A DNA stretch of 64,000 nt, taken from positions 44,870,347 to 44,934,346 of the forward strand of contig CM051024.1 of assembly GCA_027627225.1 (NCBI GenBank). The letters are read 5' to 3'. The position numbers and the translations under genes were made by a program. Origin of the DNA: Congeria kusceri (Eukaryota > Mollusca > Bivalvia > Myida > Dreissenidae). Under the pieces are notes generated by a model, which saw only the letters and a program-made list of their open reading frames with translations, ran no database searches and had not been told where the DNA came from. Shown piece after piece: positions 27,601 to 33,600 of the stretch; position 1 is the first letter of the stretch, and each line of letters starts with the position of its first letter.

Positions 27601-30600
27601 TCGTAAACACTGACATTACATCTAAGAAATTACAGTTACGATTTAATTGGCCAGAAATCAAGAACTTGAAAATATATATTATGCAAATACAATTGTGAAA
27701 GGCAAAAAAATGAAAATCGACCAAACAAAACTACTTGCGCGAGACCATAAAAACCACCGCTTCTTTCAGATGACAAATACCATTTACTCATTTTACCACT
27801 ACAACTTGATACGTTTACCACTGTTACTTATGAAGACCTATATCACTTACTCATGATACATTTACCACGGTTACTTATGATGACCTATCTCTCTTACTCA
27901 TGATACATTTACCACTGCTGCTTACGATAACTTATATCACTCACTCATGATACCTTTACCACTGCTGCTTATGATGACCTATATCACTTACTCATGATAC
28001 ATTTACCACTGTTACTTATGATGACCTATCTCTCTTACTCATGATACATTTACCACTGTTACTTATGATGACCTATATCACTTACACATGATACATTTAC
28101 CACTGCTACTTATGATGACCTATACCACTTACTGATGATACATTTACCACTGCTGCTTATGATGACCTATCTCACTTACTCATTATACATTTACCACTGC
28201 TGCTTATGATAACCTATATCACTCACTCATGATACATTTACCACTGCTGCTTATGGAAACCTGTATCACTCATGATACATTTACCAATGCTGCTTATGAT
28301 GACCTATATCACTTACTCATGATATATTTACTACTGCTACTTATGAAAACCTATATCACTTACTCATGATACATTCACTACTGCTACTTATGAAAACCTA
28401 TATCACTTACTCATGATACATTTACTACTGCTACTTTTGAAAACCTATATCACTTACTCATGATACATTTACTACTGCTACTTTTGAAAACCTATATCAC
28501 TTACTCATGATACATTTACCACAGTTACTTATGATGACCTATCTCTCTTACTGATGATACATTTACCACTGCTACTTATGATGACCTATATCACTTACTC
28601 ATGATACATTTACCACTGTTACTTATGATGACCTATATCACTTACTCATGATACATTTACCAATGCTGCTTATGATGACCTATATAACTTACTCGTGATA
28701 CATTTACCACTGTTACTTATGATGACCTATATTACTTACTCATGATACATTTACCACTGTTACTTATGAAGACCTATATCACTTACTCATGATACATTTA
28801 CCACTGTTACTTATGATGACCTATCTCTCTTACTGATGATACATTTACCACTGCTACTTATGATGACCTATATCACTTACTCATGATACATTTACCACTG
28901 TTACTTATGATGACCTATATCACTTACTCATGATACATTTACCAATGCTGCTTATGATGACCTATATCACTTACTCATGATACATTTACCACTGCTACTT
29001 ATGATGACCTATATCACTTACTCATGATACATTTACCACTGTTACTTATGATGACCTATATTACTTACTCATGATACATTTACCACTGCTGCTTATGATG
29101 ACCTATATCACTTACTCATGATACATTTACCACTGTTACTTATGATGACCTATATCACTTACTCATGATACATTTACCACTGTTACTTATGATGACCTAT
29201 ATTACTTACTCATGATACATTTACCAATGCTGCTTATGATGACCTATATCACTTACTCATGATACATTTACCACTGTTACTTATGATGACCTATATCACC
29301 TACTCATGATACATTTACCAATGCTGCTTATGATGACCTATATAACTTACTCGTGATACATTTACCACTGCTACTTATGATGACCTATATCACTTACTCA
29401 TGATACATTTACCAATGCTGCTTATGATGACCTATATCACTTACTCATGATACATTTACCGCTGCTACTTATGATGACCTATATCACTTACTCATAATAC
29501 ATTTACCAATGCTGCTTATGATGACCTATATAACTTACTCGTGATACATTTACCACTGCTACTTATGAAAACCTATATCACTTACTCATGATACATTTAC
29601 TACTGCTACTTTTGAAAACCTATATCACTTACTCATGATACATTTACCACTGTTACTTATGATGACCTATATCACTTACTCATGATACATTTACCAATAC
29701 TGCTTATGATGACCTATATAACTTACTCGTGATACATTTACCACTGTTACTTATGATGACCTATATTACTTACTCATGATACATTTACCACTGTTACTTA
29801 TGAAGACCTATATCACTTACTCATGATACATTTACCACTGTTACTTATGATGACCTATCTCTCTTACTGATGATACATTTACCACTGCTACTTATGATGA
29901 CCTATATCACTTACTCATGATACATTTACCACTGTTACTTATGATGACCTATATCACTTACTCATGATACATTTACCACTGTTACTTATGATGACCTATA
30001 TCACTTACTCATGATACATTTACCACTGTTACTTATGATGACCTATATCACTTACTCATGATACATTTACCACTGCTACTTATGATGACCTATCTCTCTT
30101 ACTCATGATACATTTACCACTGCTACTTATGATGACCTATATCACTTACTCATGATACATTTACTACTGCTACTTATGATGACCTATATCACTTACTCAT
30201 GATACATTTACTACTGCTACTTATGATGACCTATATCACTTACTCATGATACATTTACCACTGCTACTTATGATGACCTATATCACTTACTCATGATACA
30301 TTTACCACTGTTACTTATGATGACCTATATCACTTACTCATGATACATTTACCACTGCTACTTATGATGACCTATATCACTTACACATGATACATTTACC
30401 ACTGCTACTTATGATGACCTATATCACTTACTCATGATACATTTACCAATGCTGCTTATGATGACCTATATCACTTACTCATGATACATTTACTACTGCT
30501 ACTTATGATGACCTATATCACTTACTCATGATACATTTACCAATGCTACTTATGATGACCTATATCACTTACTCATGATACATTTACCAATGCTGCTTAT

Positions 30601-33600
30601 GATGACCTATATCACTTACTCATGATACATTTACTACTGCTACTTATGATGACCTATATCACTTACTCATGATACATTTACCAATGCTACTTATGATGAC
30701 CTATATCACTTACTCATGATACATTTACTACTGCTACTTATGATGACCTATATCACTTACTCATGATACATTTACCACTGCTGCTTATGATGACCTATAT
30801 CACTTACTCATGATACATTTACCACTGTTACTTATGATGACCTATCTCTCTTACTGATGATACATTTACCACTGCTACTTTATGATGACCTATATCACTT
30901 ACTCATGATACATTTACCACTGCTACTTATGATGACCTATGTCTCTTACTGATGATACATTTACCACTGCTACTTATGATGACCTATATCACTTACTCAT
31001 GATACATTTACCACTGCTACTTATGATGACCTATATCACTTACTCATGATACATTTACCAATGCTGCTTATGATGACCTATATAACTTACTTGTGATACA
31101 TTTACCACTGCTACTTATGATGACCTATATCACTTACTCATGATACATTTACCAATGCTGCTTATGATGACCTATATCACTTACTCATGATACATTTACC
31201 AATGCTGCTTATGATGACCTATATCACTTACTCATGATACATTTACCACTGTTACTTATGAAGACCTATATCACTTACTCATGATACATTTACCACTGTT
31301 ACTTATGATGACCTATCTCTCTTACTGATGATACATTTACCACTGCTACTTATGATGACCTATATCACTTACTCATGATACATTTACCACTGCTACTTAT
31401 GATGACCTATATCACTTACTCATGATACATTTACCAATGCTGCTTATGATGACCTATATAACTTACTCGTGATACATTTACCACTGCTACTTATGATGAC
31501 CTATATCACTTACTCATGATACATTTACCAATGCTGCTTATGATGACCTATATCACTTACTCATGATACATTTACCAATGCTGCTGCTGATGACCTATAT
31601 AACTTACTCATGATACAGTTACCACTGCTACTTATGATGACCTATATCACTTACTCATAATACATTTACCAATGCTGCTGATGATGACCTATATAACTTA
31701 CTCGTGATACATTTACCACTGCTACTTATGAAAACCTATATCACTTACTCATGATACATTTACTACTGCTACTTTTGAAAACCTATATCACTTACTCATG
31801 ATACATTTACCACTGTTACTTATGATGACCTATCTCTCTTACTGATGATACATTTACCACTGCTACTTATGATGACCTATATCACTTACTGATGATACAT
31901 TTACCACTGTTACTTATGATGACCTATCTCTCTTACTGATGATACATTTACCACTGCTACTTATGATGACCTATATCACTTACTCATGATATATTTACTA
32001 CTGCTACTTATGAAAACCTATATCACTTACTCATGATACATTTACTACTGCTACTTATGAAAACCTATATCACTTACTCATGATACATTTACCACTGCTA
32101 CTTATGAAAACCTATATCACTTACTCATGATACATTTACCACTGCTACTTATGAAAACCTATATCCCTTACTCATGATACATTTACCACTGTTACTTATG
32201 AAAACCTATATCACTTACTCATGATACATTTACCACTGTTACTTATGATGACCTATCTCTCTTACTGATGATACATTTACCACTGTTACTTATGATGACC
32301 TATATCACTTACTCATGATACATTTACCACTGCTACTTATGATGACCTATATCACTTACTCATGATACATTTACCACTGTTACTTATGATGACCTATATC
32401 ACTTACTCATGATACATTTACCACTGCTACTTATGATGACCTATATCACCTACTCATGATACATTTACCACTGCTACTTATGATGACCTATATCACTTAC
32501 TCATGATACATTTACCACTGCTACGTATGAAAACCTATATCACTTACTCATGATACATTAACTACTACTGCTACGTATGAAAACCTATATTACTTACTCA
32601 TGATACATTAACTACTACTGCTACGTATGAAAACCTATATCACTTACACATGATACATTAACTACTACTGCTACGTATGAAAACCTATATCACTTACTCG
32701 TGATACATTTACTACTGCTACATGTACTTATGAAAACCTATATCACTTACTCATCATACATTTACCGCTGCTACTTATGAAAACCTATATTACTTACTCA
32801 TGATACATTTACTTCTAATACTTATAATCATGGATATCACTTACTCATGACACATTTACTACTGCTACTTATAATCATGGATATCACTTACTCATGATAC
32901 ATTAACTACTGCTACTTATAATCATGGATATCACTTACTCATGATACATTTACTACTGCCACGTATAATCTTGGATATCACTTACTCATGATACATTTAC
33001 TACTGCTACTTATAATTATGGATATCACTTACTCATGACACATTTACTACTGCTACTTATAATCATGGATATCACTTACTCATGATACATTTACTACTGC
33101 TACTTATAATCATGGATATCACTTACTCATGACACATTTACTACTGCTACTTATAATCATGGATATCACTTACTCATGATACATTAACAACTGCTACTTA
33201 TAATCATGGATATCACTTACTCATGACACATAAACTACTGCTACTTATAATCATGGATATCACTTACTCATGACACATTAACTACTGCCACGTATAATCA
33301 TGGATATCACTTACTCATGACACATTTACTACTGCTACTTATAATCATGGATATCACTTACTCATGATACATTAACTACTGCTACTTATAATCATGGATA
33401 TCACTTACTCATGACACATTTACCACTGCTACTTATAATCATGGATATCACTTACTCATGATACATTTGTCTGTGTTGAAGAGTGTTTTCCGCAGACCTA
33501 GTCTCATGGTGCCACCCATGACTCCAGTGTGGTGCTCCGGCATCTCTATCACCTAGGCAACACATTGAAGAATACCAAATAACAACCAGAAAGCACTTGA

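Follow-up and report, generated by a model that had tools for sequence, protein, structure and literature searches.

An intronic minisatellite repeats the exon 11/intron 11 junction of a CTP synthase gene about 120 times in the bivalve Congeria kusceri

The human gene IFI6 (also called 6-16 or G1P3) contains a minisatellite of 26 units of 12 bp that starts near the end of exon 2, with coding isoforms as the result. This minisatellite is described as a source of multiple splice donors (Turri, Cuin and Porter 1995), two of its downstream units reportedly serve as donors (PMC4526556), and it has also been cited as "interfering with gene splicing" (PMC3618361). Here we describe an array in a CTP synthase gene (CTPS) of the dreissenid bivalve Congeria kusceri in which the junction between coding exon 11 and intron 11 is repeated about 120 times. 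It lies in a window of 64,000 nucleotides (assembly GCA_027627225.1, contig CM051024.1, positions 44,870,347 to 44,934,346 of the forward strand); all coordinates below are positions in this window. As in IFI6, each tandem unit holds a donor consensus (GT in 120 of 120 units and GTAAGT in 102 of 120), the array opens at the end of an exon, and the true donor is itself part of one unit, which we call unit 0. In contrast to IFI6, the unit is 47 bp long instead of 12 bp, there are 120 copies instead of 26, and all 119 downstream donors lead to a stop codon instead of to coding isoforms. (Coding isoforms are a feature of IFI6 and not necessarily of this kind of array.) An earlier reading of the window, made from the DNA letters without database searches (the sequence-only reading), had stated that it knew of no described system of this kind; the IFI6 minisatellite, which supplies several donors that are used, is one.

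Other published repeats also resemble the CTPS array in part. A tandem array of dual-specific splice sites has been described in the polyubiquitin gene UBC, and likewise in VCX3A, in a paper that counts 792 introns lying within 262 human tandem repeats (PMC10809524). The UBC and VCX3A arrays share with ours the presence of one splice site per tandem unit. However, the AGGT within those repeats is both donor and acceptor; in the CTPS array, the donor GT is preceded by GA in most units and never by AG, and the acceptor signals are poor. Intron gain by tandem duplication (PMC4974935, which also cites 24-bp repeats of fission yeast) is similar in that the duplicated segment spans or contains splice signals, but no new intron is evident in CTPS, where an existing intron appears to have grown from its 5' junction. 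The intronic minisatellites of earthworm metallothionein genes (PMC12783039) and the internal tandem repeats of duplicated human genes (PMC2812944) resemble ours in being unstable and in making introns longer or reshaping genes, but neither is described as repeating an exon/intron junction in the way that ours does. Among the literature matches listed, which covered few subscription papers, neither this locus nor any array with a similar number of copies was reported. A literature search on competition between identical donors found no paper, and the paper on the zebra mussel genome (PMC9210306) does not mention "CTP synthase" in its main text.

We located the exons of CTPS with tblastn, using a human CTPS1 query, and then joined them. 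The joined reading frame of the 14 coding exons is open through to the stop codon. The spliced protein is 94% identical to CTP synthase 1-like of Dreissena polymorpha across 100% of the query (39 columns of the alignment differ, one of which is a gap), and the other 119 of the 120 listed proteins are at most 88% identical. The true donor of exon 11 reads ATGA/GTAAGTGA at 33456/33455, and the join to exon 12 (ATG A/GG AAG) encodes M-R-K. (Residue 467, which is split by intron 11 from 33456 to 26281, is arginine here and lysine in D. polymorpha.) The other 12 introns of the gene are 205-1,265 nt long, compared to 7,174 nt for intron 11, most of which is occupied by the array. GT is present at 12 of the 13 donors. 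The exception is the donor of exon 3 (40794/40793, minus strand), which reads GAG/ATTAGT; a cut at this position is needed for the joined exons to match D. polymorpha (CIIELGG). The missing GT could be an error of sequencing, the allele could be a mutant one, or the intron could be of the rare AT-AG kind. At another exon of the gene, exon 7, the 3' splice site is spanned by a 41-42 bp unit in two copies (36906-36991), and the upstream copy ends in TTCTATTTTTAG, which is a possible decoy acceptor.

Tandem Repeats Finder reported a 47-bp array with 120.2 copies and 92% matches (27807-33468), and wrap-around alignment to a cyclic consensus gave 120 full units, which span 33468 to 27817, and one partial unit. 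This agrees with the sequence-only reading, which had counted about 120 copies in intron 11 and had seen the array run into the true exon end at 33456: unit 0 (33468-33422) opens 13 bases within exon 11 and holds the true donor. Each unit is made of 13 bases of exon end, a 6-base donor, and 28 further bases of intron. The 13 exon bases encode K-C-I-M, and the same place in D. polymorpha also has KCIM, so this exon end is the likely source of the array. The features are listed in Table 1.

Table 1. Features of the CTPS gene and of the junction array, in window coordinates.
Feature	Position	Strand	Details or basis
CTP synthase coding region	24398..42803	minus	14 coding exons; ATG at 42803, stop codon 24400-24398; 610 aa
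Coding exon 11	33456..33552	minus	97 nt, phase 1; final 13 bases form the exon-derived part of unit 0
Intron 11	26282..33455	minus	7,174 nt
Coding exon 12 with acceptor	26226..26281	minus	begins ag/GG AAG CTG
TGA shared by downstream products, read in frame when splicing bypasses the true donor	33448..33450	minus	intron +6 to +8; sequence
Unit 0, true exon/intron junction	33422..33468	minus	wrap-around alignment
A-type units 0-13, beside the exon	32811..33468	minus	intron part CCATGATTAT; alignment and consensus
Transitional units 14-19	32514..32810	minus	small insertions in four; alignment
B-type units 20-109	28283..32513	minus	AGGTCATCAT; weak higher-order periodicity at about 22 units
Units 110-119, most diverged full units	27817..28282	minus	mean pairwise difference 5.8 of 47
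Decayed distal remnant, B-like	27753..27816	minus	aligns to B-type unit

The last 13 exon bases, AAATGTATCATGA, are unchanged in 76 of the 120 units (unit 0 included). In the 119 decoys, the exon part still encodes KCIM in 80 cases and contains TAA in 7; unit 0 is intact. Every unit has GT after the exon-derived part, as had been claimed, with the GT of unit 110 (which has a 4-base deletion) positioned by hand. The claim that every unit also carries the full GTAAGT does not extend beyond the 102 units mentioned above, as the remainder have GTAAGA (12), GTAGGT (2), GTGAGT (2), GTAAGG (1), or the deletion (1). Similarly, AGCAG was said to lie ahead of the exon-derived part of each unit, and we found it in 67 of 119 cases, with AACAG in 28, AGCAT in 18, and other sequences in 6. 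From -13 to +6 around the junction, 68 of the 119 decoys are identical to unit 0, and 63 are still identical from -13 to +11.

With tandem units in the range of roughly 10-100 bp and homogenisation in blocks, the array is a minisatellite, and by exact matching it is confined to one locus: a 30-mer of the main unit type has 50 exact matches in the 1.55-Gb assembly (1,071 contigs), all within the array, which as zero-mismatch matches of one 30-mer give a lower bound for the repeat in the genome. (The window by itself contains 50 matches of the same 30-mer.) Elsewhere in the 64-kb window, nothing resembled the unit above chance level; in the 432 nt that precede the 13 exon bases, homology to the unit did not exceed that of shuffles; and Rfam at gathering thresholds gave 0 matches in the window. 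Because 47-bp units that are so alike make assembly difficult, the array might have been collapsed or inflated in the assembly. We consider such an artefact very unlikely: the units carry 53 distinct substitution types, arranged in ordered blocks, and the window has no N and lies inside a 116-Mb contig. The copy number could be off, but the existence of the array hardly could. The array is a real, clear, and unusual structure.

The units nearest to the exon (0-13) carry the intron variant of the true junction, as the sequence-only reading had noticed. Mean pairwise differences, out of 47, are 2.7 among the A-type units, 3.3 among the B-type units, and 5.8 among the last ten full units. Among the B-type units, those 22 apart differ by 3.10 on average, versus 3.61 overall. 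Beyond the last full unit, the distal remnant aligns to the B-type unit with a score of 39, compared to a maximum of 26 among 300 shuffles. Outward growth from the junction had been suggested, but we found no age gradient from the exon (rho = 0.05, P = 0.56 for local divergence with position in the array), although the distal end, which is decayed, is of B type. The A-type units beside the exon could represent either a later local spread that included the junction or the original type from which the B type departed.

We propose that the array is a tolerated intronic minisatellite that arose by tandem duplication over the exon 11/intron 11 junction and expanded through unequal exchange, and we consider this explanation likely to be correct. 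A tandem duplication across this junction in the CTP synthase gene of a dreissenid would have started the array, and slippage or unequal exchange would then have extended and homogenised it. Recombination between unit 0 and a later unit would restore the exon end and its donor, so that the junction would be preserved and the array could grow without breaking the gene. As for why it would be tolerated, the first donor is transcribed first and lies at a normal distance from the acceptor of exon 11 (which is 97 nt long), and exon definition would therefore select donor 0. The block-wise homogenisation (the A-type cluster, the 22-unit higher-order period, and the diverged distal end) supports this explanation. 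So does exon 7, where CTPS carries another duplicated junction, of two copies and on the acceptor side. Also in its favour are the start of the array in register with the true junction, the exact matches restricted to the array, the drift of the decoy exon parts beside an intact unit 0, and, as detailed below, the donor block with almost as many variant types as expected within the B-type units, the stop shared by all 119 downstream donors, and the 48 strong GT sites outside the array that are not true donors. A beneficial function is not needed, as the ordinary explanation suffices; the array is probably a tolerated repeat expansion.

To score the donors we used a simple donor matrix. By this measure, 99 of the 120 units (unit 0 counted) score as high as the true donor or higher, which bears out the earlier description of the units as near-identical decoys. 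The score of unit 0 (4.97 bits) ranks 10th among the 13 donors of the gene. Because the units also carry further GT sites, there are 169 GT sites in the array, or about 30 per kb, that score at least as high as unit 0. Outside the array, 12.8 kb of the coding span contains 58 GT sites at or above this score, comprising 10 true donors (including unit 0) and 48 non-donors. Strong pseudo-donors are routinely ignored by the spliceosome. What is unusual about the decoys is not their strength as donors but how closely their surroundings match those of the true site. By simple arithmetic, about five donors, including the true one, lie within 300 nt of the acceptor of exon 11.

If donor k were used instead of donor 0, then exon 11 would be longer by about 47k nt. 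For each of donors 1-119, translation would run into the same TGA, which is codon 469 of 610 and occupies intron positions +6 to +8. Use of any downstream donor would yield an mRNA that contains this stop, which would probably be removed by nonsense-mediated decay, and the product would lose the last exon with the GVQYHPEY motif. This part of the protein holds two of the catalytic residues. We also considered microexons by pairing each of the 119 donors with every AG that lies 6-45 nt upstream of it. Of these 576 combinations, 563 give products that stop before codon 600, and 13 are stop-free (11 of 42 nt, one of 33 nt, and one of 9 nt). Before the AGs of the array, the pyrimidine content is at most 0.55 (median 0.40), compared to 0.50-0.95 for the 13 true acceptors, so that the two ranges meet. 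Moreover, the longest run of pyrimidines in the array has 5 bases and that in the last 60 nt of intron 11 has 4, so weak acceptors are not good evidence by themselves, and the stops argue more strongly against microexons.

These results bear on the suggestions that the array buffers the gene against mutation of its donor or generates microexon variants, both of which came from the sequence-only reading. It is true that GTAAGT is so common in the array, that the units contain AG dinucleotides, that a few microexons are stop-free, and that the array has a pyrimidine run as long as any at the end of intron 11. But the array donors cannot insure against the loss of donor 0, because all 119 reach the same stop; nearly all of the microexon products stop as well; and the pyrimidine content before the AGs is mostly below that of the true acceptors. 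At the level of sequence, both suggestions are largely contradicted, and we find them scarcely credible. Alternatively, the array might be a platform of about 120 U1-binding sites that shields a long intron from premature polyadenylation and has no role in splicing. Such a shield would fit with the absence of AATAAA and ATTAAA from the 5,640 nt of the array, as these hexamers occur 3 and 5 times, respectively, in the following 1,534 nt. However, the absence of a hexamer from a repeat is one observation and not 120, and 11 of the 12 other introns have at least one such hexamer and no junction array. Also, intron 11 is long only because of the array itself, and a U1 platform seems highly improbable to us.

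A further explanation is that splicing is unproductive to a degree that depends on the length of the array: the decoys would compete with the true donor, a share of transcripts would use downstream donors and decay, and the length of the array would tune the dosage of CTP synthase. The high scores of most of the units, the modest rank of the true donor, the 68 decoys that match unit 0 exactly from -13 to +6, the handful of donors within reach of the acceptor, and the single stop shared by all 119 downstream products speak for this explanation, and in human IFI6, downstream repeat units do serve as donors (PMC4526556). Nevertheless, use of the first donor via exon definition would silence the decoys, and the signal of selection in the array is inconsistent, as described below. 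We think that this explanation is unlikely. We are also quite doubtful that about 120 near-identical 5' splice sites compete in this housekeeping gene, with one shared stop, so as to make array length a dial for CTP synthase dosage that varies between mussels.

Several observations weigh against a simple tolerated expansion. Our case for the use of donor 0 comes from the reading frame and the conservation of the protein. Also, because the donor of exon 3 lacks GT, the copy of CTPS in this window may not be fully normal. Some block tests on the columns of the array lean towards constraint: the block of 13 exon bases and 6 donor bases gave 69 units varying versus 137.9 (P = 0.008, the lowest of 20 tests), and columns +1 to +5 gave P = 0.022 for variant types and P = 0.036 for units varying. 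Furthermore, 10 of the 47 columns are without substitution, including +1, +2, and +5, and GTAAGT is kept in all 20 of the nearest decoys, versus 81 of the 99 farther ones (P = 0.04, the lowest of 4 cut-offs). The 20 block tests ranged from P = 0.0078 to P = 0.80 and are uncorrected, and as the units share ancestry, the counts are not independent. The block of exon and donor bases otherwise gave P = 0.13 for variant types and, within the B-type units, P = 0.06 for units varying and P = 0.48 for types. For the donor block (+1 to +6), there were 4 variant types versus 6.8 expected (P = 0.10), or 4 versus 4.6 within the B-type units (P = 0.48). With GTAAGT kept throughout the first 20 decoys, purging of decoys near the exon is not apparent. 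Overall, there is no clear sign of selection for or against the decoy donors; the signals are weak and inconsistent. We rejected donor conservation as proof of selection, given that the smallest P value (0.008) was inconsistent across measures and within the B-type units.

We also considered and rejected a hairpin around each donor, formed by an 8-bp stem that places the donor in its loop. Although folding is better for the array than for shuffles (z = -3.51), the true junction is not outstanding (z = -1.29). All 8 pairs of the stem are kept in 76 of the 120 units, 7 pairs in 31 units, and 6 pairs in 13 units, and the breaks are uncompensated (for example, A-A in 12 and C-U in 8).

The window contains other tandem repeats. 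A 26-bp repeat of 8.6 copies (21505-21728), which lies past the 3' end of the coding part of CTPS, has GTAAGT in its unit on the plus strand; by eye, we recognised no adjoining exon. A 166-bp family, identified by consensus, occurs in intron 13 of CTPS (25092-25723) and upstream of exon 1 (43204-44543), and so, unlike the 47-bp unit, it is not restricted to a single site in the window. Comparison of consensus units by eye suggests that 45125-46887 and 56697-58649 are the same 53-bp satellite in opposite orientations. On the minus strand, an open frame of 504 amino acids (18575-20089) runs through a 59-bp satellite and, given its repeat content, is probably a chance frame. Of the remaining open frames, we take 6987-7400 (minus strand) to resemble a C1q-type domain and 60830-61303 (plus strand) to resemble a transposon-derived protein.

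This locus is a clean natural test of exon definition versus competition among identical donors. Because 63 of the 119 decoys match the true site exactly from -13 to +11, the cue that discriminates between them would have to lie outside of this block; the candidates are position, the order of transcription, or the remainder of the upstream exon. The locus also illustrates that the end of a coding exon can sit inside a satellite. Copies that drift, such as the seven decoys with a stop codon, could overwrite the exon end by exchange, and selection would then have to remove them.

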